Of a DNA stretch of 64,000 nucleotides, positions 539-14,582 are shown one piece after another. Under the pieces are notes generated by a model. The model did no database searches and was not told the origin of the DNA. It worked only from the letters and a program-made list of their open reading frames with translations. This DNA is from Tribonema minus (taxonomy: Eukaryota > Sar > Xanthophyceae > Tribonematales > Tribonemataceae). Location of the stretch: the NCBI GenBank assembly GCA_017506865.1, contig JAFCMP010000196.1, positions 1-64,000 of the forward strand. The letters are read 5' to 3'. Position numbers and translations under genes: made by a program. How positions within the stretch are numbered: position 1 is the first letter of the stretch; each line of letters begins with the position of its first letter.

Positions 539-2448
539 TTGCGCCATACGCTGCACCATTGGCTGGGCCTGGAAAGCACGTGTCGCCGAGCGATCGGCGG
601 CGCCGACCATCCTGCTGGCGGCGCTGACGCCCGGCCACTGCGTCAACAACTGGAACGTGTAACAAGCAGCTACGCTGCTGACTCGTCGGATGCGACTTTG
701 GCACCCACAGCGCAGCCTACTATGAAGCCCGACGCTCAGCTGCAGCTGCAGCATGCAGCAGATCAGAGCTACTTCCATCAGGCTCTGATGACACTTACTA
801 TGCAGCGCGATGCAGCTACGGCAGAGGCTCAGCAGCTACGGAGGGCCAACGCTGGCCTATCGGCGGCGCCAACGGCCGCAATGGCGGCCGCCCCAGGTAC
901 TATGCAAGCAGCGGCTACCCAGCAGAGGCCATCGACGACTGCTGCGCCAACTGCCTTGCCTGCTGCCACCTCGCGGACAGCGGCAGCAGCGACTTTGGCG
1001 CCGCAGCCCGCGGCGCCGCAGCAGCGGCGGCGCCGGCAGCAGCGGCGGCGCTGCAGGCAGCGGCGGCGCCGGAGGCGGCGGCGGCGGCGATGGCGGGCGG
1101 CGGCGGCGGCGGAGGCGGCAGCGGCCCCTCTAGATCGCCCCGGGCAGTGTACGGTTGGCGCAGCCTCTGGCGGCGGCAGCGGTGGCGGCAAGTGGGAGGC
1201 AGGCAGCCGCGACGACAACTTTGATCGTGATGGCTGGGCTCTGCGCCGTGTACCGGCAGACTTGGACAAGCTGTTCCATGGCCTCACGCCTGTAAACCGC
1301 GGCGACGAGTATGTCGTGTGGCAGATTGGCAGTCAACTGCTGGTGCACCTGCGCCACGCCTGCTCACTCGCGCGCCAGAAGGCCAAGCTGCCGCAGGTGC
1401 TCAACAGGGAGGACGACTTTGGTTGCGAATGGCTGGCCCCCTTCACCATGGGCCTGTGCGTCGCCTTACGGGGCTCGCACCCTGCAGCAGCAACGGTGCG
1501 CGAGCAGGCAGAACAATGGATCGCGGAGGGAGCACGGGGGTGGCAGCTGGCACGAGAGACCTGCAGCTCTACAAGTGGCTCATGGAACAACTGGGGGAGC
1601 ACTTCCAGCAAGGTCAGCCTTCTCGCATTGCGGCGGACCTGTTACGCGTGGCGGTGCGCAAAGACACGCCATTCCGTGATGCGCTCAACTACATGCAGTC
1701 CAAGTGCAACCTGTCCGCAATGATCGACCCGACAGACGACAACCTACGCGTCCAAGCTCTTACGGGCTTGGTGAACAGGCAATACCCAACCATTGCCGCG
1801 CAGGACAACATTCGGGACATCATCAACCGCCACACACGCTACAGCATGCACCAGGCGCTTGAGGCGCTCAAGGCGCACCGCTCCGTGCAGCATCTCGCCA
1901 GCGGCGCACCCGCCGGCTACTCTATATACCCGGAGACACTCAGCACGGGCTCAGGCGGAGGCGCCAGCGGTCTAAGTGGCGGCAGTGGTGGTGGTGGCAC
2001 CAATGATTACGCGCTGGGCGACAGGAGGCGCAGGCAGCAGCGTGAATCAGTGACACTGAACTCTATGGCTCTGTTGGCAGTGGTGGAGGAGAAATTCACC
2101 AGCTCGGAGCGGGCGCGGGGTAACGCGCTGGGGTGCTACAACTGCGGCGGTGATCACCTGTTCAGCGCATGCTCGGAGGCATTCAACCACGCAGGTTGGG
2201 CAGCGGCAGCAGTACAACGCCCACAGGTGCAGAAATTTGCGCCTACGAACCAGACGACGTGGCAGGCACTCCGGTCGCGCGTACGTGCTTTCAACAGCGG
2301 CGATGCCTCCTCGCTTCAGGGCCCGCGCGGCAGAGATTCTGCAGATGGTGGAAGCGGAAGTGGCGCTGGCGGTGGCAGGAGCTACAACCGCTACGGGGGC
2401 GGCTACGGCCGCGGCGGCCGTGGCAACAGTGGCAACAGGGGCACCTAG
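539..2448 (+). CDS. gag: Gag polyprotein with CCHC zinc knuckle (one frame change near 1555)
   Basis: Gag is the structural nucleocapsid precursor of the retrotransposon. The first part (539 to about 1555) has an Ala/Gln-rich helical region, a very basic Arg-rich stretch (about 1020-1110) and a capsid-like helical region starting near 1200. The reading then moves to the next frame at about 1555, where the capsid-like region continues (RDLQLYKWLMEQL onward). It ends in a Gly-rich tail containing a zinc knuckle (C-Y-N-C-G-G-D-H-x4-C, near 2137-2172) and RGG-like repeats. The frame change is at a GAGAGA-type stretch; it is either an indel or a -1 shift site. The frame ends at a single TAG (2446-2448), after which the same frame stays open into pol. 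Confidence 0.75.
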
Positions 2449-5400
2449 GGGTGCGACCCCCAGCCCACTCCTGGCTGGGGGGGAGCACTTGGAGCCTCTA
2501 GTGTCACTGGGGGGGGGAGTGACGCCCTCCCCCCGACGACAGTCAGAGACGCTGCGGCAGCAGCGGCGCCTGCGGGCGTCGCGCAAGCTGCAGTGCGCGC
2601 GACGTCTGCGGGGGCGACGGCGAGCGCCGCCCAAGCAGCTGACGCGCAGCGGAGCGCTGCGATGGCAGCGGCGCCCTCGGGCGCCGCGCCAGTCGCAGCG
2701 CGTACTTCTGGTGTGGCGGCGCCGCGGCGCGCCGCGCACGCACCAGAGGCACTACGGAGTGCTGTGGCAGCAGCGGCGCCTACTGACGTCGCGCAAGCTG
2801 CAGCACGCGCGGCTTCTGCGGGGGTGCTGGTGAGCGCCGCCCAAACGGCCGACGCGCAACGAAGCGCTGCGATGGCAGCGGCGCCCTCGGGCACCGCGCC
2901 GGTCGCGGCGCGTGCTGCTGGTTTGGCGGTGCCTGCGCGCGCCGCGCACGCACCAACAGCACCACGGAGGGCTGCGGCAGCAGCGGTGTCTATGGACGTC
3001 GCGCAAGCTGCGGCGCGCGCAGCTTCTTCAGTGGCGCCGTCGAGCGCCGCCCAAGAGGATGACGCGCAGCGGGGCGTTGCGATGGCAGCAGCGCCCTCGG
3101 GCGCCGCGCCAGTCGCGGCGCGTGCTTCTGGTGTGGCGGCGCCGCGACGCGCCGCGCTCGCACCAGCAGCACCACGGAACGCTGCGGCAGCAGCGGCACC
3201 TTTGGGCGCTGCGCTGTCTGCAGTGCATGCAGCTTCTGCAGCAGCGGCGAGCGCCGCCCACGCAGCAGCTGCGCAGCAGAGCGTTACGACGGCGCAGCTT
3301 CCGTTGAGCGCTGCTGCTGAGGAGGCGCCCACGAACGCTGCTCAAGTCGCAACGGCGCGATGGAGACCGGCGGCGTTGGCGGCGCCTGATGGTGCTGCAC
3401 AGTCGCCGGCGACAACAACTACGACTGTACAGCGGTGGCCTATTTTGGGGCGACGTAAGTCCAGCGGCGCGCGGCTACGGCGCGCGCGCGCGGAGCGCCT
3501 GCAGCAGGAGCAGCGCGCTCGACAGCCGGTAGCACCCCTCAGCCCTATTCAGGAGCGTGGTACTCCAGCACGGAGACCCGTGCATGCTGCGGCGGGTCAT
3601 GGAGTTGGCGCGCACGCGTCATCGCAAGGGGGGGTGAGGATACCACCAGCACCAGCAGTGAGTAGCTGCAGCACGGCTACAACTGCAACTTCTGCGCCGG
3701 CAACGGCGCCACATTTGGCGACTGCAGCAGCTGCTGCGACGCGACACACGACAACTCCATCTTCTACACCAACTTCAACTCTGACATCAACTGCGACTCC
3801 CACACATTCCTCAAGACCGCCTTCAGCACCACTCAGCGGCGGCGACGCTGCTGCGGCGGCGCACGCCGCCGACGACGCCGCCTTTGCAGCGGAGCAGCAG
3901 CGCAGGCTGATAGCTCTGCAGCGGCTTCATGCTTTCAAGGTGGATGGCACGGCTCAACCTGAGCCGCAGCGGCGGATGCGCAGCTGGGCGCCGGCGGCAG
4001 AGACCCTTGGCGCCATCGACGAGGTGCTGGACGGCGAGGCGGGCCTGACAGCGGTGGAGATAGCCATGGCAGAGGAGGCGCGCACTGTTGAGCGCTGCTT
4101 CGAGATACTGGCGATGTGGGCGCCGGAGGACGGAGCTGATGACGGGGCGGTCTTGGCATACTACGCTGAGGTGGCAGCGATGGAGGCCGCAGTACTACCT
4201 GTACCACAGCAGGCAAGCATGCCCAACGTAAGGGGCAAACTCTATACTGACGTGCACTCTAGGTTCAAGGCCCGTTTACGCTCTGCGCGCGCACTACGTT
4301 GCAAGTTTTCTAGGGACATTCTCTGGGACACTGGGGCCTCAGTTACTGCCATCAGGGAGCAAGCATTCCGCAAATTAGTTGCATCAGGAGCCATAGAGCA
4401 ACGGGATGTTCACCAACTCAGCAAACCTAGGGCAGTAGCCGGTGTTGACACATCCAAGAAGCCACAGCTCGTCACCCACGCTGTAGCGCTTCACTTTGAG
4501 GCTGATGGCCCAGACGGGGTAGCTTTCACTCAGCTGGCGCTCATTGTACCACATCTGCCACACGACATCATCATTGGGCGTGACCACATCAGCAGACATA
4601 AGTGGCATGCAAGTCATAGTGGCAGTGGGCCCACATACGTGTATGGCGAGCCATCAGCAGAGTCCACCCCCAGCTTCAGTCCCAAAGTCCCAGTGTACAC
4701 CTACGGAGAGGAACGCGATTGGGTGGCAGTAGTGCGCGTCGCAACAGAGCTAGATGGCCTTGAACATGGTGTGCAGACAGTTTGGGTTCAAGTGATGGAG
4801 TCTGATGGGATCACACCTGTCGTCTCCTGCCCGGGAGAACTGGACACAGCACATCTGACCATTGCGGAGGAATTCCTGAATCACATGTACACACGCGAGC
4901 TGACGGTTGGGCTGCATGCCAAGCCGGTCAAGCTCGAGCAGCGGGGGGAGCCCCTCTCGCTGCCACGTGGCACCGTGCTGGGCAAGGCGCGGCCGCTACG
5001 TGAGGTACCTGACAGCGTGCTGGAACGGGACCCGAACGCGCGCGCCACGGCGGTAGAGGTTTACTGCGGCGCTGGCGGCCTGGCGGAGGGGCTCCAGCCC
5101 TACTTGAACGTCAAGCTAGCCGTTGACTCTGAGGAGCGCGCTCTTCGGATATACAAGGAGAATCACCCTCATACGGACGTCCGCCGCCGGGATATGGCGG
5201 ACCCATCTACGCGCGCAGAGCTCATTGCAGATATGTGGCGGCTGCGCGCCGAGGTCTTTTTAGGGGGCCCCCCCTGCCAGAAATTCTCAACAGCAGGGGA
5301 GGGGGAGACGGCTTTGGGCATGGAGCACCTCTACTACATGCTGGAGGTAGCAATGGGCGCAGAGACCTGCCGACTACTGCAGATTGAAAATGTTCCGGGC

Positions 5401-8400
5401 CTTGGGGCGGCACCGGAGCTGGCGGAGTTTCTGCGCTGCGCAGCACACGGCGGCTTCACGGTGCAGCAGGAGCTAGTGATCACTGGTGCAGACAGCCGCA
5501 TTGCTCAGACGCGCACGCGTGTGTTTTGGCTGCTGGGGCGACCTGGCACTGGCGAGCACGACAGCGCGCGCATGCAGGCGTCTATGCACCAGGCAGTGCA
5601 GTTGCTGACATATGCCAAGCAGCACGCTGAGTACGACACCGTGCGCAACGTCACCAGCGACGTGCTTGACTCCAACGGTCAGCGGCGCGACTTCTTTGCA
5701 ACAGTTGGCCGCAACACTAAGGCCAAACAGGTGCACTCTATGGACGGCCCGGCGCCGACCATTCGCGGCTGCACGTACCGCCGAAACCTGCAGCCTAACA
5801 TCGACGTGCGACCACAGGATGCTACGCAGGACCCGGCTGAGCACGCGCGCGCGGAGTACCTACCCTGGCATGCGCTGCGCGCCATTCACAGCTTTCCCAC
5901 CTCGTACAAGTGGGATGCTCCAGAGCCGCCTGACGTCACTGCCTACTCACAGATGCTGGCGAACGCGGTGTGCCCGCAAATGGCGGACCTACTGGGGGGG
6001 ATCCTGCTGCAGAGCGGATTGCTGCATGATGTCGTGGACCAGGCGGCGGCATCGTCGCTGCCAGATCCAGTACAAACCCTCATCAATTCTGGCACCCACC
6101 ACGCTTTCGGCAAGTATGGAGTGGCTCTTGCACAGGAGGCGCGCAGACGTGTGGCGCGCGGAGCGCGCGCCCCTCAAGCACAGGCTGCTGCAGCTGCGGC
6201 GGCGCCGGCGAGCGCTGCGACGGCGGCGCCGGCGAGCGCTGCTGCAGCAGCGCCGGTGAGCGCTGCTGCAGCGGCGCCGGCGAGCGCTGCTGCGGCGGCA
6301 GCATATACAGGCATTGCGCGCAGTGCGCCGCGGGTTGCTGCCGCGGCGCCGCAGGGTGCCGCGCAGTCAGCGGCCGCGCCGCGGAGCTCTGCGACAAAAG
6401 AGACGTCTTCTGGCCCCGTACACGGCGACACTGCTGCTGCTGCGCAGGCAGCGGCTGCACGCCGGGACGCTGCGGCGGCATCGGTGCCGGCTGGCACCGT
6501 GCGCGCTGCAGCCCAAGCTGCCTCAGGGGCGGCTCATAAGGAGGTCGCGCAGGCAACAGTTGCGCGACAAAGCGCTGCGACGGCAGCGGCGCCCGAGGGC
6601 GCCGCGCCAGTCGCGGCGCGTGCTGCTGGTGTAGCGGCTGCGTCGGCGCGCGCCTCGCAAGCACCAGTGACACCAGGGAGTGCTGCAGCAGCAGCAGCGC
6701 CTGTGGGCGCCGCGCCAGCTGCAGCGCGCGCAGCCTCTTCGGTGGCGCCGACGAGCGCCGCCCAAGCGGCGGACGCGCAGCGGAGCGCTGCGGTGGCAGC
6801 GGCGCCTACGGGCGCCGCGCCGGCATACGCTGATTCTGCCGCGGCGCCGACCAGCGCCGTGCATGGAGTGGCAACACAACAGAGCACTGCGGCAGCAGCG
6901 GCGCATGCTGGCGCTGAACCAGTCGCAGTGCACATGACCACCGCAGTGGAGTGGGCGAGCTCCGCACAGGCGGCAGCGGCGCAGCAGCGCTCTGCAGCGG
7001 CAGCGGCGTCTGAGGACGCCGCGCATGCGGCAGCGGCTAGTGGGAGCAATGCTGCAGCGGCAGCATCAGTGACAAGCGATACAGCGGCGCAGCCCGCGCA
7101 CGCGGCAGGCGCCGCCGCGGCGGCGCCAGCGCGCGCTGGGAGGGAGGAGCACATCTTTGTGCTGGACCTGCGCACTGACATTATGCGCTGCGAGGCGGAG
7201 CCGGAGGGTGACGCCGGCAGCAGCGCTGACGCGACTAATGCGAAGGGCGCAGCAGCCGTGCGAGAGGCGCTGCAGCAACACCTCGGTGAGGCCGTTGACT
7301 TTGAGCCTAGTGGGAGCGTAAAAGTACACATTCCTGACAGCGGCGGCTTAAGTTTGGGGTCATACGTTCACGAAGACCCTAAGGTTAATGCTGCTTTGGC
7401 TGAGGCACGCAAGCACTTGCCAGACTACATGCTGGCAGTGCGCGTTGACCTGCAGGGATGGGACGTTGATCAGGTGGCGTGTTTGTGCCTGCTGCTCGCT
7501 CAGTATAGCAGCAAAATGTTCTCAAAAGACAAGTGGGACATAGGGCATTGTAACACATTGCCCTTCCGCTTTGATCTCAAAGAGGGCAGCACACCGCACC
7601 ATGACCGTCCATATAGGTACTCTCCTGCAATGACGGCTCTAGTCAAGGTCGAAATCGACAAGCTGCTGGCTGCTGGCATCATCCGCCCTTCCAACTCTGA
7701 GTGGGCATCCCCAGTGGTGGCAGTGCTCAAGCCTAATGGCACTGCCCGAATCACGGTCAACTACAAGAAGCTGAACGCCCAGACCAAGATCCCCCAGATC
7801 CCCATTCCCAACATAGAGGATCTTCTCAATAGTTTGGGGGGCTCAAAGGTCTTCACCACCATGGACATCACCAGTGGGTACTTCACTAGTGCCATAGATG
7901 CAGACAGCATCCCTCTCACTGCCATGGTCACGTCGTTTGGCTTGTATGAGTGGCTACGGTGCCCACAGGGGGCAGCGGGGGCGCCAGGGCACTTTACACG
8001 CCTCATGCAGATGGTGCTTTCCGGCCTAGAGCGCGTCCAGCCCTACATTGACGACGTCATTGTGCACTCTACATCCATGGCTCAGCACCTCGACGACCTC
8101 AAAGCCCTTTTTCAACGCCTAGAGCATCATGGGATGAAGCTAGCCCCCAGCAAGCTGCACATAGGGTGTAAGCACATCAAGTTCCTGGGGCACATTGTGG
8201 GCGTTGATGGCATCAGGCCAGATCCATTTAAAGTTCAAGCCCTACTTGAGATGCCCATCCCCTGCAACATCTCTCAGCTGCGTGCGTGGCTTGGCCTCGC
8301 AAACTACTACCGGCGATTCATTCAGAACATGGCCAAGCTGGTAGCACCGCTCACCCATCTGATGGCCAAGGGGGTGGACTTCGTAGTTGGCAGTGCTCAA

Positions 8401-9738
8401 CAGCAAGCCATCCGCGAGGTCAACGAAGCCCTGGCGCTTCACACTTGCATGCAGTACCCCGACTACGCGCGCGCCAGCACCGGCGAGCGCCCCTTTGTCC
8501 TTGCCACAGACGCATGCAAGGAGGGCTTTGGCGCAGTGCTCTCGCAGCCCAACAACGACGGCGCGGAGCATTCGATCGCCTTCACATCTCGCGCGACTCT
8601 ACCCAATGAGCGCAACTGGTCTACTACCGACCTTGAAGCCGGCGCCATCGTCTTCGGCATCAAGAAGTTCAAACACATCCTGTGGGGGACGCCGTTTGTC
8701 CTCCACACCGACCACCGCGCTCTTCAGTACATCGACAGCCTTCGCGAGCGCACCGCGCGCGGCGCGCGCTGGAGCGAGTTCCTCAGCGCCTTCAACATCA
8801 CCATTCGCTACAAGAAGGGCGCGTCACACGGCAATGCCGACGGGCCAAGCCGCAATCCTGTCCCTGCCACACCACAAGATGCAAAGGAGAGCGAGCGCGA
8901 GCGGCTGCTCGAGGCGTACTGCCTGCAGGCCCACGAGTGGGAGCGGCTGGAGGCATTTGCAACAGCAGAGTACATCAACATCTGCACAGAGGTGGTAGCA
9001 GCGCTTCAAGGAGGGGGAGAGGAGCAGATTTCAGCGCTTGCTGACGCGGCAGACGCTGAGGCGGGTGCATGGGAGTGCTTCGCTGAGCATCCTCAACTGG
9101 GCGTCATGACGCCTGGTGACTGGCAGCGAGAGCAGCGCGCAGATGCTCAGCTGGGGCCAATTTGCAACATGCTGCTTGGAGCAGGACTGCCAGCAGACGC
9201 GGCGCTTGCAGCCCAGGTACAGAAATGGGCCTTGCAGTGCAGCCTTGTCGTCTGCGGCAACGCTCAGCTCTTGGTGCACAACACCCCCGAATCCCCGCTT
9301 CCACAGCTTGCCATTCCCCGGTCCATTAGGGATCAAGTTCTTGAGGCGATGCACGGCTCAGCTTGGGCAGGTCACCAGGGCATTAAACGCACATTGGAGC
9401 GCACCCGCGCGCACTGCTGGTGGCCCTCTTGGACCCTAGACGTCAACTACTGGGTTAATCATTGCTGGCCCTGCCAAGCGTTCAAGCACACCGGTAAGCT
9501 GTCTCGCTGGCCCACTATATGGCGCGAGAGGCCCCCCTACGCCTTTCATAGCCTAGCGCTTGGACCACTTCGGCCCCCTACCCCTCAGTGCTGGCGGCTT
9601 CATGTACATACTGGTGGTGATGTGCCTGTTTTCGGGCTGGGTGTGGTGCTATCCCATCAAGCCTGGGGACTACAGTGCTGCTGGCACAGCCGAAGTTTTA
9701 GTCAACCAGCACAGCACTCGTCACGGTCCCCCTTCTAA
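2449..9738 (+). CDS. pol: Pol polyprotein: protease, DNA methyltransferase, RT, RNase H, integrase zinc finger
   Basis: The frame is open from the codon after the gag TAG; the first ATG is at 2593 (residue 1 here). Order: an Ala-rich repeat linker (to about residue 270); an aspartic protease with DTGAS at residue 579 (4327) and a later IIGRD; a C5-cytosine methyltransferase (about residues 818-1140); a second Ala-rich linker (about 1195-1515); reverse transcriptase with YIDDV at residue 1818 (8044); RNase H starting near ATDACKEGFG (about residue 1973); and an integrase HHCC zinc finger (HGSAWAGHQG to CWPCQAF, about 9352-9483). After about 9556 this frame no longer encodes integrase, which continues one frame over from 9560, so residues beyond about 2320 are a read-through tail. 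Expression is probably by suppression of the gag UAG, since no frame change is needed. It lies between gag and the integrase/chromodomain frame. Confidence 0.85.
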   Translation, partial: GCDPQPTPGWGGALGASSVTGGGSDALPPTTVRDAAAAAAPAGVAQAAVRATSAGATASAAQAADAQRSAAMAAAPSGAAPVAARTSGVAAPRRAAHAPEALRSAVAAAAPTDVAQAAARAASAGVLVSAAQTADAQRSAAMAAAPSGTAPVAARAAGLAVPARAAHAPTAPRRAAAAAVSMDVAQAAARAASSVAPSSAAQEDDAQRGVAMAAAPSGAAPVAARASGVAAPRRAALAPAAPRNAAAAAAPLGAALSAVHAASAAAASAAHAAAAQQSVTTAQLPLSAAAEEAPTNAAQVATARWRPAALAAPDGAAQSPATTTTTVQRWPILGRRKSSGARLRRARAERLQQEQRARQPVAPLSPIQERGTPARRPVHAAAGHGVGAHASSQGGVRIPPAPAVSSCSTATTATSAPATAPHLATAAAAATRHTTTPSSTPTSTLTSTATPTHSSRPPSAPLSGGDAAAAAHAADDAAFAAEQQRRLIALQRLHAFKVDGTAQPEPQRRMRSWAPAAETLGAIDEVLDGEAGLTAVEIAMAEEARTVERCFEILAMWAPEDGADDGAVLAYYAEVAAMEAAVLPVPQQASMPNVRGKLYTDVHSRFKARLRSARALRCKFSRDILWDTGASVTAIREQAFRKLVASGAIEQRDVHQLSKPRAVAGVDTSKKPQLVTHAVALHFEADGPDGVAFTQLALIVPHLPHDIIIGRDHISRHKWHASHSGSGPTYVYGEPSAESTPSFSPKVPVYTYGEERDWVAVVRVATELDGLEHGVQTVWVQVMESDGITPVVSCPGELDTAHLTIAEEFLNHMYTRELTVGLHAKPVKLEQRGEPLSLPRGTVLGKARPLREVPDSVLERDPNARATAVEVYCGAGGLAEGLQPYLNVKLAVDSEERALRIYKENHPHTDVRRRDMADPSTRAELIADMWRLRAEVFLGGPPCQKFSTAGEGETALGMEHLYYMLEVAMGAETCRLLQIENVPGLGAAPELAEFLRCAAHGGFTVQQELVITGADSRIAQTRTRVFWLLGRPGTGEHDSARMQASMHQAVQLLTYAKQHAEYDTVRNVTSDVLDSNGQRRDFFATVGRNTKAKQVHSMDGPAPTIRGCTYRRNLQPNIDVRPQDATQDPAEHARAEYLPWHALRAIHSFPTSYKWDAPEPPDVTAYSQMLANAVCPQMADLLGGILLQSGLLHDVVDQAAASSLPDPVQTLINSGTHHAFGKYGVALAQEARRRVARGARAPQAQAAAAAAAPASAATAAPASAAAAAPVSAAAAAPASAAAAAAYTGIARSAPRVAAAAPQGAAQSAAAPRSSATKETSSGPVHGDTAAAAQAAAARRDAAAASVPAGTVRAAAQAASGAAHKEVAQATVARQSAATAAAPEGAAPVAARAAGVAAASARASQAPVTPGSAAAAAAPVGAAPAAARAASSVAPTSAAQAADAQRSAAVAAAPTGAAPAYADSAAAPTSAVHGVATQQSTAAAAAHAGAEPVAVHMTTAVEWASSAQAAAAQQRSAAAAASEDAAHAAAASGSNAAAAASVTSDTAAQPAHAAGAAAAAPARAGREEHIFVLDLRTDIMRCEAEPEGDAGSSADATNAKGAAAVREALQQHLGEAVDFEPSGSVKVHIPDSGGLSLGSYVHEDPKVNAALAEARKHLPDYMLAVRVDLQGWDVDQVACLCLLLAQYSSKMFSKDKWDIGHCNTLPFRFDLKEGSTPHHDRPYRYSPAMTALVKVEIDKLLAAGIIRPSNSEWASPVVAVLKPNGTARITVNYKKLNAQTKIPQIPIPNIEDLLNSLGGSKVFTTMDITSGYFTSAIDADSIPLTAMVTSFGLYEWLRCPQGAAGAPGHFTRLMQMVLSGLERVQPYIDDVIVHSTSMAQHLDDLKALFQRLEHHGMKLAPSKLHIGCKHIKFLGHIVGVDGIRPDPFKVQALLEMPIPCNISQLRAWLGLANYYRRFIQNMAKLVAPLTHLMAKGVDFVVGSAQQQAIREVNEALALHTCMQYPDYARASTGERPFVLATDACKEGFGAVLSQPNNDGAEHSIAFTSRATLPNERNWSTTDLEAGAIVFGIKKFKHILWGTPFVLHTDHRALQYIDSLRERTARGARWSEFLSAFNITIRYKKGASHGNADGPSRNPVPATPQDAKESERERLLEAYCLQAHEWERLEAFATAEYINICTEVVAALQGGGEEQISALADAADAEAGAWECFAEHPQLGVMTPGDWQREQRADAQLGPICNMLLGAGLPADAALAAQVQKWALQCSLVVCGNAQLLVHNTPESPLPQLAIPRSIRDQVLEAMHGSAWAGHQGIKRTLERTRAHCWWPSWTLDVNYWVNHCWPCQAFKHTGKLSRWPTIWRERPPYAFHSLALGPLRPPTPQCWRLHVHTGGDVPVFGLGVVLSHQAWGLQCCWHSRSFSQPAQHSSRSPF
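2481..3375 (+). repeat. Ala-rich linker repeats, upstream of the methyltransferase
   Basis: An in-frame minisatellite with a unit of about 210 bp (about 70 codons) is seen by matching points near 2640, 2850 and 3060 (DAQRSAAMAAAP-like core). Each unit encodes Ala/Pro/Arg/Ser-rich low-complexity protein. The same unit type recurs downstream of the methyltransferase (6175-7140) and in the relic at 57300-58330. It is probably a flexible linker. Confidence 0.8.
5044..6030 (+). other. C5-cytosine DNA methyltransferase domain inside pol
   Basis: This domain would transfer a methyl group from S-adenosylmethionine to cytosine C5. All core motifs are visible in order: motif I VYCGAGGLAEG (SAM binding, about 5059), an acidic VDSEERAL after the second strand, motif IV GGPPCQKFS with the catalytic Cys at pol residue 895 (5275), motif VI ENVPG (about 5386), motif VIII QTRTRVFW (about 5506), a target-recognition-like region with DGPAPTIRG (about 5740), and motif X ANAVCPQMADLLGG (about 5959). 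No internal stop or frameshift interrupts it, so it looks catalytically competent. The fold is certain to family level. It could be a maintenance, de novo or bacterial/viral-type enzyme; a phylogeny is needed to say which. Confidence 0.9.
6175..7140 (+). repeat. Ala-rich linker repeats, downstream of the methyltransferase
   Basis: This is in-frame Ala-rich repetitive coding sequence. The first part consists of short AAPASAA-type repeats (6190-6300). The rest repeats the approximately 210-bp unit of the upstream linker, with matching points near 6558 and 6773. The methyltransferase is therefore bracketed by two arrays of the same repeat. Confidence 0.75.
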
Positions 9739-11281
9739 GCTCCTCAGCGACCGCGGCAGCCTCTTCATGGCAGAGCTTTCTCAAGCTGTCTACAAGCAGA
9801 TGGGCGTCAAGAAGCTTTCCACTACCGCATACCACCCTGAGTGCAACGGCAAGTGTGAGCGTTTCATGCAGGAGCTGGCCCAGATGCTCGCCATGTTAGT
9901 TGATAGTGCCAAGAACAATTGGGCGGACTGGCTACCTCATATCAGTTTTGCCCACAACACTGCCTACAACCGCGCCACCGGCGCAACCCCCTTCCTTCTG
10001 GCTACTGGTCGCGACGCCGCCGTCGCACTACACCTCATACTGGGCAAGCTTCAACAGCCCTTGGTCAAGCCTGGCACACATCCTTCAGTGTCACAGCTAG
10101 TGTTCGACATCCTTGAGCGGCAGCGCTCAGCCAACACCATTGCCAACCAACGTCATGCGCTGCGACGGGCTAAGGTTCTCCGCGAGAACACCGAGATCGC
10201 GGAGGCATTTGGGCTACGTCAGTCGTTCAGCGCTGGTGAGCGAGTGTGGTACTACCATGTGCCGCGCACGCATACAGCATCTGCAGACACGGAGCCGGCA
10301 CCAGTGGCGGGGGAGTCCAACAAGGCGAAGCGCACACTCTTTAGCAAGAAGCTCTTGGATAGATGGCATGGGCCCTATACCATAATATTAGCGGGCCCGG
10401 CGGAGAGCGGCGGGGAGTGTGTGCAGGCCGGGTGTCTTCTGGTGGACATCAACGGACGGCCTACGCGCATATCGATGCGCCTCACCAAGAAGTGTCGCGA
10501 CCCTAGCGACATGTGGCAGCAGCCGGAGACGTTGCCTGCGGGCTTCTCTCGCTACCTGCTGGCGAAGCACTGGAGCGGGCATTCACCTGGCTCACTCTCT
10601 ACTGACGACGTTGCTGCTCACAACTTCCAGCGGCACGGTGTAGAGGCAATACTTCAACATCGTGTAGCGGCGGCAGCGCGCGGGCGGGGGCACCGCCTAC
10701 AGTACCTAATTCGCTGGGAGGGTGCAACCAGTGGGGGGATAGTTGACTCGTGGGAGGACTCCGAGCAGCTAGATGAGTGCCCCCAAGTACTCGAGGAGTA
10801 CTGGTCTACATTAAACAAGGCCATTGCCTGTCGCGACATTACAGTGGCGGGCTCAAACACTCAGGTGGTCAAGCGTCAGCTGCGACGCGCCGTCAAGGCG
10901 CGGGGCGTTGGCGGCGTTCTGGCCCAATGTGGTGCGGGCTCGTATGAGCTTGCGCCTCTGGCGGAGGCGTTACTCCAGCCACCTGCGACATCGGTGTTGC
11001 AGAGTGCAGCTATCAGCGGACTGCAGCTTATGGCTGTTTTCAAGTTCACGGAGCCAAGCGGCGAAGAGCACCTTACTTGGTGTGAGGGCGAGCTCACGGG
11101 CGTAGTCTCAAAGGGGAAGACAAGGCATACACAGATAGCTCATAGGGTGTTCTGGATTGTTGAAGGGGTGTATCAGACCCTAGTACTGGACCCTAGCTTG
11201 TACAACACGCGCCCAGATGCATCGAATGGTTCTTGGTTCCTAGTTGGCACACAAGCCCAGCTGGAATCATTGCATGTGTAG
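9560..11281 (+). CDS. pol: Integrase catalytic core, chromodomain and C-terminal extra module (pol continuation)
   Basis: This is the continuation of pol in the next frame, overlapping the tail of the previous frame. The integrase core has D at residue 2 (DHFG), D at residue 64 (LLSDRGSLF) and E at residue 100 (NGKCERF), giving the D,D-35-E spacing of retroviral-type integrases. A chromodomain follows at about residues 361-421 (YLIRWEGA, DSWED, LEEYW), expected to bind methylated histone tails or other chromatin and to guide insertion. A further module of about 130 residues follows, with HLTWCEGELTGV and a late LDPSLYN. It resembles small Tudor-like barrels but I cannot assign it. The ATG at 9560 is probably not a real start; the frame is most likely entered from upstream, and a one-base indel near 9556 is the simplest explanation. 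The stop at 11279-11281 lies just before the 3' untranslated region. Confidence 0.85.
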   Translation: MDHFGPLPLSAGGFMYILVVMCLFSGWVWCYPIKPGDYSAAGTAEVLVNQHSTRHGPPSKLLSDRGSLFMAELSQAVYKQMGVKKLSTTAYHPECNGKCERFMQELAQMLAMLVDSAKNNWADWLPHISFAHNTAYNRATGATPFLLATGRDAAVALHLILGKLQQPLVKPGTHPSVSQLVFDILERQRSANTIANQRHALRRAKVLRENTEIAEAFGLRQSFSAGERVWYYHVPRTHTASADTEPAPVAGESNKAKRTLFSKKLLDRWHGPYTIILAGPAESGGECVQAGCLLVDINGRPTRISMRLTKKCRDPSDMWQQPETLPAGFSRYLLAKHWSGHSPGSLSTDDVAAHNFQRHGVEAILQHRVAAAARGRGHRLQYLIRWEGATSGGIVDSWEDSEQLDECPQVLEEYWSTLNKAIACRDITVAGSNTQVVKRQLRRAVKARGVGGVLAQCGAGSYELAPLAEALLQPPATSVLQSAAISGLQLMAVFKFTEPSGEEHLTWCEGELTGVVSKGKTRHTQIAHRVFWIVEGVYQTLVLDPSLYNTRPDASNGSWFLVGTQAQLESLHV

Positions 11282-11449: not shown

Positions 11450-11675
11450 CTAGGGGGGGTGACTGTGGTGACACTGGATGTTGGGGTGTCACCTGTAACT
11501 GTTACGGTTGGCAGTTACGAGTTGTTCGTTGTTGTTTGTTTGGCTCAGACAAGAGCAGCAGCCCCAGAATACACATAGCACAGTTCGGTCAGCTGTGTTG
11601 TGTGTGGTTGTCTTCTCTGCATTGTTCCCTGCACTTGCTGAAGTGTAGTACGGAGACTAGTTGTTTCATCAACAC
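11450..11675 (+). repeat. Polypurine tract and 3' LTR of the chromovirus
   Basis: A G-rich purine tract (CTAGGGGGGG) ends at 11459 and is followed by TG at 11460, as expected for the start of an LTR. The following 200 bases (with TGTAA near 11490, GCAGCCCCAGAATACACA near 11560) match the minus-strand relic at 53890-54130, which also has a purine run before GTGACTGTG. The right end near 11675 is inferred from where the two stop matching. The 5' LTR is not in the window, so the length cannot be confirmed. Confidence 0.55.
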
Positions 11676-12413: not shown

Positions 12414-14582
12414 TCAACTTGGCACCCTTCTTCGTCGGTGCGGGGGCGGCAACTTGGACCCCACTTCTGGGTCCGACAGCAACTGCTGCTGCAGCGCCAG
12501 ATCGTTGCTCAGCGCTATCACGTCGCGCACAAAATGCTGGAGCCCGGGCCGCAGAACTGCGCTCTCCCAGTCTGCCTCGCGTTGCACCATCTCAGTGCGC
12601 CTCTTGCCTCTGAAGTCCTGCGTGTGCTGGCACTGCTCCGTGTCGGTGAGCCACATGTAGCACTGCAGCTGCACAACGGACAAGACGCGGCAGCAATGGC
12701 GGAAGTCATTTCAACATTAGTGACTGAGGAGCTCATGTAAAAAGTTAACTGGCTCCGCATCGAACGCACGTGCTCGCGCTGGCGCTGCTTGCTGCGTGTC
12801 GGTGAGCCTCATTGAGCACTGCAGCTGCACGAAGGGCTGGGGGAGGCAGCGATGGCGGAACTTATTGTGACATCAATGACTGAGGGGCTCATCATGAGCC
12901 GCTCATGTAAAGTGTTGTTTGCATTTGCTTCAAGGGCACCTGCGCCTGCCGGCGCTGCTCCTTATTGGTGAGCCACATGTATCACTGCAGCTGCATGACG
13001 CGGCAACAGTGGCGGATCACGTCGATGACCTATGTGAACCACACTGCAGTTGCATGATGAAAGAGTCTGAGCAGCGAGCATGGCAGCAATCGGAAGGTCA
13101 CTGTTGCATGATAGCAAGCCCGCACGCCTCATCGAAGCTAGACCTCTGTGCCGCAAGTCACACCCTCACCTGCACCAGCTCGTACTTCGGAATCTTCGGG
13201 AACAGGCGCCTCTGCCGTTTCTTCACTTCCACTATGACCCGCACATTCGCGCGCCACGCATCCACCCTCCCCTTTATCAGCACCGTCACCGGCACCGGCG
13301 CCACGCTCAGCTCCTTGTAGTACACACGGTTGTCCCGGACAACCTCGCCGCCCGCGTCCCTCGCCGCCCGGTCCAGCGCCGCGGGCTCGTTCATGGTGCC
13401 GTGCAGCTTGTTGACGTCGCCAAGCACAGTGCTGTCCAAAGCGCGCTGCGAGCTCTGGGACTGCGCGGAAGACACGTCCTGTGCGGTCGCGCGCAGCTCG
13501 CGCTCCGCGTTGCGCACGCGTGCGGCGCCACGGCGCTTGCGCCACGACAGCGCGAGCGGAACGCCCACCGCGGCGAATGCGGCCGCTGCCGCGGCTGCCA
13601 ACAGCGCCGGAGGCTGTGATGCGAGGCTGCCGCCGACGTCTGCAGCAGCTGATGCTGCTGCTGCTGCAGCGGCTGGCGCTGCTGCTGCCGCAGAAGCGGC
13701 CGTTGTCGTGGGCTCGGACGCTGAGCTCAGAGCGTCGGGCGCCGCCGCGCCGTTCACAGCAGCGCTTGCAGCAGCTGCTTCGTACGCCTCATAGAGGACG
13801 CCGCCGGTGTCAGCGACGCACTCTGCGCCGCCGCTGAGGTACAGGATTGCAAGCGCCGCTGCCGCGACCGCTGCTGAGCAAGCCGCGGCGGCCTGCCAGT
13901 GCGCCGCCGTGCGCTCTTCCCGCTCCATCCGCGCCGCCAGCTTCGAGCAGCCGTCGTCAAGGACCTGTTGACGCTGCTGTGCGTCCTTCGCCTGCCGCAC
14001 TTCATGCGCTGTGGCGGTAAGCAGCTCGCCGGCCGGCCCGGCCTCCGCGGCGATGGCACCCAAGGCTGTTTGCAACGTCTGTGCCGCGCCCTCTTCGAGC
14101 TTGGCCCTTGCGGCCATTGCGGCGGCTTCCTCCTTCGCCCTGCGCTTGGCGGGATCGCGCTCAGCGGCGGCGGCACGGACGTCTGGGGCAGCCGCGGCGC
14201 GCGCCGCAGCCAACCGCTCTCTCATGGGCGACGCTGCTTCCATGGGGCTGGCCTGCTTGATGCGCTCGACGGCTTCTGCGTAAGCCTGTGGATAGAGCTT
14301 TGTCCACGCTTTGGCGACAGCTATTTCGCGGGGCTGAAATTTGTTTTGCCCCAGCGCAGCAGCCACCTCGGAGGCGTCAATATGGAGTGTAGGCAGGGGT
14401 TCAGACGCTTTCATTTCTGGGGCTGCTGCTGCCGCTGTAGAATTCGCCACGGTTGCTGATGAGGCTGCTTGAGATCTGCAGTGACTGAGTTGAAACTTAA
14501 CATGCAGCAGCGACCATCGTGCTCGTGGCATGAGCCTCGGCCGCCCTGCTGCTGTTGCTGCCGTCACTGCGCCTCTGATCAT
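12414..14582 (-). CDS. Predicted organelle-targeted PD-(D/E)XK nuclease-like protein, 2 exons, with an inserted membrane segment
   Basis: Model: complement of 13170-14582 joined to 12414-12668, 555 residues, phase-0 GT-AG intron (donor CAG|GTGAGG, acceptor TTGTGCAG). The first 50 residues are rich in A, R and S with no acidic residues, like a chloroplast or mitochondrial transit peptide. Residues 67-100 (HIDASEVAAALGQNKFQPRE) resemble the N-terminal part of a YqaJ-like/viral-type nuclease family. The catalytic part (GRVDAW, D441; VEVKKRQRRLF, E452 and K454; KYELVQ|LQCYMWL) gives the D-x(n)-E-x-K signature and the Q-x-x-Y helix. Between these halves lie about 290 Ala-rich residues with two likely membrane helices (about 229-249 and 324-346), which is unusual for this family. 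A role in organelle DNA repair or recombination is inference. The splice junction is duplicated in the intron. Confidence 0.65.
12632..13075 (-). repeat. Tandem copies of the exon-2 acceptor region in the nuclease intron
   Basis: A unit of roughly 160 bp is repeated about three times, with copies near 12632, 12786 and 12952 and a short fragment near 13030. On the minus strand each begins with an acceptor-like TGCAG followed by CTGCAGTG. Only the first copy leads into the open exon 2. The second changes the codons and the third has a stop (LQ*) directly after the acceptor. Confidence 0.7.

Follow-up and report, generated by a model that had tools for sequence, protein, structure and literature searches.

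A bacterial-type cytosine DNA methyltransferase domain in the Pol polyprotein of Ty3/Gypsy retrotransposons of Tribonema minus

Retrotransposon-borne DNA methyltransferases (DNMTs) are already known (de Mendoza 2018). The available part of PMC5890265 reports them in LINE and DIRS elements of Symbiodinium and in Gypsy elements of Klebsormidium; two SymbioDIRS-Dnmt3 domains methylated CG in yeast, and the negative result for KnitGypsy was called inconclusive. By analogy, the SymbioDIRS-Dnmt3 result in yeast may serve as a precedent for the chemistry of such an element's DNMT. PMC12344493, in the part available, includes retrotransposon-borne DNMT3, LINE orphans and the ChloroDNMTs of green algae in its list, and the accessible text of its section on these DNMTs does not name a bacterial-type DNMT in a Gypsy element; according to the accessible text of PMC9998398, no DNMT3 was found in the green algae of MMETSP. 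Our search of the open-licence literature turned up no paper that describes a Gypsy element with a chlorophyte or bacterial-type DNMT. Here we describe a 64,000-nt stretch of the Tribonema minus genome (contig JAFCMP010000196.1, positions 1 to 64,000 of the forward strand; hereafter the window), which contains a Ty3/Gypsy long terminal repeat (LTR) retrotransposon with a C5-cytosine DNMT domain inside its pol frame. A first-pass annotation made from the letters alone had proposed such an element and named dinoflagellates and a charophyte as precedents, which the available part of PMC5890265 bears out. DNMT-bearing retroelements as a kind are known; new, as far as our literature search reached, are the class of the enzyme, the deep co-divergence and the loss of catalytic motifs described below.

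Like the window element, KnitGypsy-Dnmt3 of the charophyte alga Klebsormidium nitens has its DNMT in the Pol frame of a Gypsy-type element, with catalytic residues kept and under purifying selection (PMC5890265, available part). It differs in being of Dnmt3 class and, per the figure legend in the same source, in having a DIRS-like repeat structure, whereas the window element has a DNMT of bacterial/phage type, ordinary LTRs and a chromodomain, and its DNMT recurs in ten families. A DIRS-like repeat arrangement was not found here, as direct LTRs of ordinary type stand at both ends of two sister copies (on contigs C551 and C35). SymbioDIRS-Dnmt3 and SymbioLINE-Dnmt of Symbiodinium are likewise DNMT-bearing retroelements in many copies, and for the DIRS elements the trees of DNMT and reverse transcriptase (RT) are reported as congruent; these are DIRS and LINE elements with a Dnmt3 or an orphan DNMT, and two of their Dnmt3 domains methylated CG in yeast (PMC5890265, available part). 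Chromoviruses share with the window element the order protease (PR)-RT-RNase H-integrase-chromodomain, to which the DNMT between PR and RT is an addition. Finally, a bacterial/phage DNMT subfamily (P0008, P0012, P0016; loci L064-L143) shares its motif order and the block PSPTIRGVNRP after the target-recognition region, but consists of free-standing proteins in bacteria or viral contigs that are 23-28% identical to the window domain.

The Pfam family DNA_methylase (PF00145) matches pol residues 868-1180 (5050-5988) with an E value of 8.8e-17 and a score of 61.9 bits, the cut-off being 22. RT, RNase H and the integrase zinc domain are encoded by this open frame too. The motifs of C5-cytosine DNMTs follow in canonical order: motif I (VEVYCGAGG, 5053-5079), motif IV with the PC nucleophile (GGPPCQKFS, 5263-5289), motif VI with ENV (IENVPG, 5383-5400), motif VIII with RxR (QTRTRVF, 5506-5526) and motif X (LANAV, 5956-5970). 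An AlphaFold2 model of 5020-6036 has a mean pLDDT of 83.2 and a pTM of 0.85, and pLDDT falls below 50 only at residues 224-236 and 250-279. The domain looks able to methylate DNA. The first-pass annotation had seen the full motif set uninterrupted in the pol frame between protease and RT, which the Pfam match and the motif coordinates confirm; as a correction, the pol frame of the window copy breaks later, within the integrase. The features of pol and of the 3' end of the element are as follows.

2449..9738, + strand: pol open frame, 2429 aa from stop to stop (open reading frame list)
4249..5028, + strand: protease region, placed by eye from the LWDTGAS motif at 4321-4341
5050..5988, + strand: C5-cytosine DNA methyltransferase domain (PF00145 E 8.8e-17, motifs, AlphaFold2 model)
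7726..8199, + strand: reverse transcriptase, RVT_1 (Pfam E 3.2e-24)
8485..8793, + strand: RNase H, RT_RNaseH (Pfam E 5.4e-32)
9313..9489, + strand: integrase zinc-binding domain, H2C2 (Pfam E 3.7e-17)
9557..11281, + strand: second frame, 574 aa, with the remaining integrase and the chromodomain (frame list, Pfam)
9581..9838, + strand: integrase core, rve (Pfam E 6.7e-8)
10640..10807, + strand: chromodomain (Pfam E 1.4e-7)
11464..11671, + strand: 3' LTR, 208 bp, TGTGGTGACACTGG...TTTCATCA, placed from the LTR pairs of the sister copies C551 and C35, boundaries by eye

The window element is a chromodomain-bearing Ty3/Gypsy LTR retrotransposon that was recently active. It has the order PR-RT-RNase H-integrase (PR by motif), and two sister copies show an LTR pair with a short target-site duplication. 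The chromodomain lies C-terminal of the integrase, as in chromoviruses, an assignment made by layout (the RT tree is without published chromovirus RTs); the chromovirus-type layout proposed earlier is borne out by the Pfam domain order and the chromodomain. A Pfam scan of the window gave no protease match, and in a sister family (L015) the family gag-asp_proteas matches at the equivalent place with an E value of 0.0023, below the curated cut-off. Because of the break in the window copy, the rve and chromodomain matches fall in the next frame (9557-11281); the integrase region is open throughout in copies L009-L011 (domains scanned in L009). Since the window starts at the first base of its contig (C196), it does not show the 5' LTR of this copy.

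A DNA search with window positions 4850-6150 gave 41 matches that correspond to at least 40 places including the window itself, at 96-100% nucleotide identity (one place is split over two rows; the number is a lower bound, the best candidates having been scored). These copies constitute family A. The 339-aa domain is full length and stop-free at 27 family A places, window included, and at 6 of these 27 it is surrounded by an uninterrupted pol frame of 2936 aa. In five family A copies fetched whole, the DNMT differs from that of the window by 3-14 nt and 3-6 residues and contains no stops, and one of the five has Arg for the motif I Cys. Moreover, a protein search with the DNMT domain gave 124 matches in the genome, and a genome search with PF00145 gave at least 123 scored matches from 378 candidates. 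The LTR pair of C551, an element of ∼12.7 kb, is identical at 210 of 210 aligned bases, and that of C35 is 99.0% identical over 208 bases; 4-bp target-site duplications, GTAA and AACA respectively, were read by eye from the flanks. This near identity of the LTRs, together with the duplications, indicates recent activity. The search for sister copies that the first-pass annotation had proposed as a check therefore found the DNMT family-wide. It also disposes of a chance chimera, a misassembly or a decayed passenger, which the broken pol frame of the window copy might have suggested: the 40 places, sister families with ∼64% and ∼37% identity, purifying selection and relatives in the protein database refute this explanation, to which we give practically no credence.

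The DNMT is not confined to family A, as it is present in all ten Gypsy families opened in this genome (A and nine others). Protein identity to the window DNMT is ∼64% in family B and ∼37% in family C. Families D1, D2, E and F were located through DNMT searches and are therefore biased toward DNMT carriage; groups G, H and I were picked by RT searches, and all three carry a DNMT (G in L056-L058, H in L059, I in L060). This sampling covers Gypsy elements, with RT rows such as C62, C27 and C47 left unopened. Among database proteins, P0001 (38% identity) is a whole pol with a chromodomain, and P0002-P0007 and P0014 are 49-69% identical over their aligned parts. The position of the domain varies, with the protease upstream of the DNMT in A, B, C, G and P0001 and downstream of it in D1, H and I, and in D2 likewise by motif alone. 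In family E (L006, L034, L054) the DNMT is encoded by a 930-aa frame whose start resembles a zinc finger (by eye), and RT and integrase follow in later frames (L054). A divergent RVT_1 match at residue 2432 of a long D1 frame in L028, between the DNMT and a later Gypsy RT, raised the suspicion of a different class of element; the following stretch (L053) has Gypsy-type PR and RT, so a nested insertion is the probable explanation. The genome also holds free-standing DNMTs (L001-L003, the first two on contig C223), and L001, the one of the three that was scanned, strongly matches phage DNMT families.

In a 75-row DNMT tree, all 20 rows entered as retrotransposon DNMTs (17 from this genome, P0001 as a whole pol, and P0003 and P0014 as DNMT-bearing fragments in which RT was not seen) form one clade with support 98/92. 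This clade is sister to the P0008/P0012/P0016 subfamily of bacterial/phage DNMTs (subfamily support 95/86), and the two together are separated from other DNMTs at 100/100; the free-standing L001 and L002 and the DNMT2-like (by eye) L004 fall outside. The DNMT phylogeny called for by the first-pass annotation thus placed the retrotransposon domains as one clade beside a bacterial/phage subfamily. The tree includes 40 of 156 usable bacterial/viral DNMTs (15 of 80 bacterial and 25 of 76 viral), hand-picked for spread, and 15 of 75 database proteins; its reference rows came from a bacterial alignment and it is without eukaryotic DNMT1, DNMT3, CMT and DNMT5 rows. Two long branches, F and G, come together in it, and its bootstrap is nearly but not fully settled.

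A profile built from nine retrotransposon DNMTs (eight from the genome and P0014) scored the 80 bacterial loci of the subfamily at 119-169 bits, 76 viral-contig DNMTs at 62-304 bits, and database proteins outside the subfamily and the retrotransposon-like group at up to 109 bits, except for P0015 (197 in total over two DNMT matches). The top two viral scores belong to L160 and L165, whose summed DNMT scores are about twice those of other loci and suggest tandem DNMT domains. Against solved structures the same profile reached up to 95 bits with DNMT2, 74 with M.HhaI, 70 with M.HaeIII and 67 with DNMT1, and DNMT3A was absent from its 58 matches at E ≤ 10; DNMT3A appeared at E 0.004 with another profile, which includes two bacterial rows. 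Hence, by profile comparison, the element's DNMT does not belong to the Dnmt3 class, and its nearest sampled relatives, in a tree without a Dnmt3 row, are the bacterial/phage subfamily. The first-pass annotation had expected a further case of DNMT capture, and a retrotransposon-borne DNMT it is, but one unlike those published in being nearest to bacterial/phage enzymes rather than Dnmt3 and in occurring in ten families. A viral origin was considered and set aside, since the viral contigs held no close relative of the window DNMT; the bacterial genome contigs held none either.

DNMT and RT trees of 13 rows have 6 of 10 splits in common, compared with a mean of 0.33 and a maximum of 4 in 10000 label shuffles. 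This congruence makes it probable that the domain was acquired anciently and inherited with pol, and its occurrence in all ten families opened likewise points to an old capture. A single capture before the examined Gypsy families diverged, after which the DNMT descended with Pol and the domain order changed, is most likely on this phylogenetic evidence. Alternatively, the A/B/C and the D-I lineages might each have captured a bacterial-type DNMT, the two enzymes being related; this would agree with the position of the DNMT before the protease in D1, H and I (in D2 by motif only) and after it in A, B and C. Group G, however, is on the D-I side and has the protease first like A, B and C, so that domain order does not split along that line, and the best tree has one retrotransposon clade (98/92). 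A tree that groups A/B/C with the bacterial subfamily is worse by 10.1 log units; the AU test does not reject it (p-AU 0.20), and we regard two captures as fairly unlikely.

Selection on the domain was estimated as the ratio of nonsynonymous to synonymous substitution rates (dN/dS, Nei-Gojobori) for 16 pairs. In 13 of the 16, dN/dS was 0.07-0.25 (A-B 0.19-0.24, within A 0.22, within B 0.07-0.22, C_L021/L022 0.11, D1 0.15-0.16, D2 0.21, F 0.25 and G 0.16-0.21), and bootstrap upper limits for eight DNMT pairs were at most 0.32; C_L019/L022 was saturated, with pN/pS 0.31. These values are rough because synonymous changes are near saturation between families. The DNMT domain appears, from these ratios, to have been long retained by purifying selection. 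RT, compared in eight of the same pairs, is under tighter constraint, with dN/dS of 0.08-0.09 for A-B, 0.18 within A, 0.03 within B, 0.06 for C_L019/L022 and 0.08 for D1; the exception is C_L019/L020 (1.6, from very few changes), and D2 was saturated (pN/pS 0.08). The catalytic motifs were tabulated for 24 genome rows, P0001 and P0014 (26 retrotransposon rows) and three bacterial rows. The motif IV Cys is present in 24 of the 26 retrotransposon rows, the motif VI Glu in all and the motif VIII RxR in 25, and the PC dipeptide, ENV and RxR are intact in the rows of A, B, C, D1, E, F and H. C_L020 has a damaged motif I.

How such a DNMT would be made may be read from the junction of gag and pol, where the following features were placed.

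1231..2448, + strand: 3' part of the gag frame, with a CCHC-like knuckle, CYNCGGDHLFSAC, recognized by eye and the stop TAG at 2446-2448
2446..2490, + strand: candidate stop read-through signal, with helices 2449-2454/2485-2490 and 2457-2465/2473-2481

A Pfam scan of the gag frame 1231..2448 gave no match. The TAG that ends it is in the pol frame, and a two-helix hairpin lies directly 3' of it. The minimum free energy is -39 kcal/mol for 70 nt (z -1.9), moderately below that of shuffled sequences, 11 of 200 of which fold as well. Fifteen pairs are kept in 4 of 4 distinct sequences and 2 are changed on both sides, a level matched by 33 of 500 shuffles; the two compensated pairs, which separate families A and B, fall in the longer helix. 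By eye, a comparable stop and hairpin are present in family C. The TAG and hairpin are therefore described here as a candidate for a programmed stop read-through signal in a Gypsy element.

The explanation that we favour, with moderate confidence, is that of a recently active Gypsy element with a bacterial-type DNMT in its Gag-Pol, captured once and long ago. It builds on the domain, its motifs, its presence across the families, purifying selection and its descent with RT, all of which were observed. The DNMT would be made by read-through of the gag TAG stop, and Pol with the DNMT would be packaged in the particle together with RT and integrase. The DNMT may methylate the double-stranded cDNA of the element, or the chromatin of the integration site, before or at integration, marking the element's own DNA by analogy with the methylase of a restriction-modification system. 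Such a methyl mark would keep the cDNA from being recognized or attacked as foreign DNA, or would set in advance the chromatin state that the new copy takes on. The first-pass annotation had likewise proposed that the element may methylate its own copies, to hide from host sensing or to mark integration sites.

Several observations weigh against this explanation. CpG depletion was looked for in the element as a trace of self-methylation and was not seen: the observed/expected ratio is 0.92 in the window element compared with 0.73 in window 16001-64000, and 0.72-1.12 in ten fetched loci. There is thus no mutational trace of CG methylation and no support for lasting CG self-methylation; methylation in another sequence context, young copies or a short-lived mark would fit undepleted CpG. 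In most of the pairs the DNMT is under weaker constraint than RT (A-B 0.24 versus 0.09), and C_L019/L020 (0.71) and E_L006/L034 (0.60) have the dN/dS expected of decaying copies. The DNMT and RT trees conflict within D-I, where DNMT unites D1, E, H and I (95/95) and RT unites H and I (97/96), and the grouping of A/B/C with the bacterial subfamily given above belongs here as well. Furthermore, in five family A places the DNMT is split between frames at one common spot, it is also split at two places on C6, and additional split or partial copies occur among the matches, so that an intact domain is not required in cis by each copy.

Exceptions to the motif IV Cys are G_L056, in which the stretch is deleted in frame, and P0001, where Thr replaces the catalytic Cys, motifs VI and VIII are changed and the 2106-aa pol is still open; motif IV variants are STRCE in G_L057 and G_L058, STLCT in I_L060, TSSCV in D2_L027 and TAPCV in D2_L026. 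The L056-type subfamily of group G with the motif IV deletion is present at 27 places at 98-100% identity, of which 11 cover residues 1-298 and 16 cover 21-298; in these 16, residues 1-27 match as a separate row, frame-shifted where the spacing was checked, and four of the 27 places lie in frames of 3452-3455 aa. L056-type elements have thus multiplied without the catalytic loop. Judged from these motif losses, not every lineage needs catalysis, and the L056-type multiplication together with the split A/C6 copies means that activity is not strictly needed in cis and could be supplied by helper copies. Selection might instead retain the domain for something besides methylation, with a DNA-binding, base-flipping or architectural function in the polyprotein (as a spacer, a partner of RT or a part of the integration complex) for which catalysis is optional. 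This would account for the dN/dS of 0.16-0.21 in group G despite STRCE in two subfamilies and the deletion in the third, and for the open pol of P0001. However, PC, ENV and RxR are intact across deep divergence in A, B, C, D1, E, F and H, which a structural role would not require, and the loss in L056 could be recent, in which case the selection estimated for the entire branch may have acted before it; we therefore find a purely non-methylating role rather improbable. A related idea, which we hold tentatively and as somewhat doubtful, is that the Gypsy radiation was built on a captured bacterial DNMT that is now obligate in Pol, and that in some lineages it may be a pseudo-enzyme with a non-catalytic job in DNA recognition or integration-complex assembly during retrotransposition, the catalytic loop being gone while selection still acts on what is left of the domain and copies go on multiplying.

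The DNMT could also act mainly on the host, methylating chromatin near insertions together with the chromodomain and damping the expression of the element, and so lowering its cost. The available part of PMC5890265 names slowed retrotransposition to the benefit of the host as a possibility, and in families A and B the chromodomain is in the same polyprotein as the DNMT. No chromodomain was seen, however, in D1 and D2 (L024-L027, frames that extend past the fetched stretch), and we consider a mainly host-directed enzyme distinctly unlikely compared with the favoured explanation of methylation of the element's own cDNA or integration site.

Some other features of the window were noted. Related Ala-rich repeats of 105 nt (35 aa) flank the protease-DNMT block on both sides (window 2551-3398 and 6176-7041), and the block is placed as if between copies of one repeat array. 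Beyond the element, a 62-nt repeat occurs in three imperfect copies at window 12617-13000, with spacings of 156 and 166 nt. Six frames of the host region gave no match in a Pfam scan. A genome search with PF00016 found two fragments with one stop each, which is compatible with plastid DNA in the nucleus.

These results suggest that the Dnmt3 of the host is not the necessary source when an LTR retrotransposon captures a DNMT, and that an enzyme of bacterial type came into a Gypsy lineage long ago and persisted through deep divergence. Moreover, a single genome in which some sister families have the catalytic motifs intact and others have them altered or deleted is a natural experiment on the function of the domain. 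The purpose of a retrotransposon-borne DNMT, a question left by PMC5890265 in the part available, is thereby made testable within one organism.

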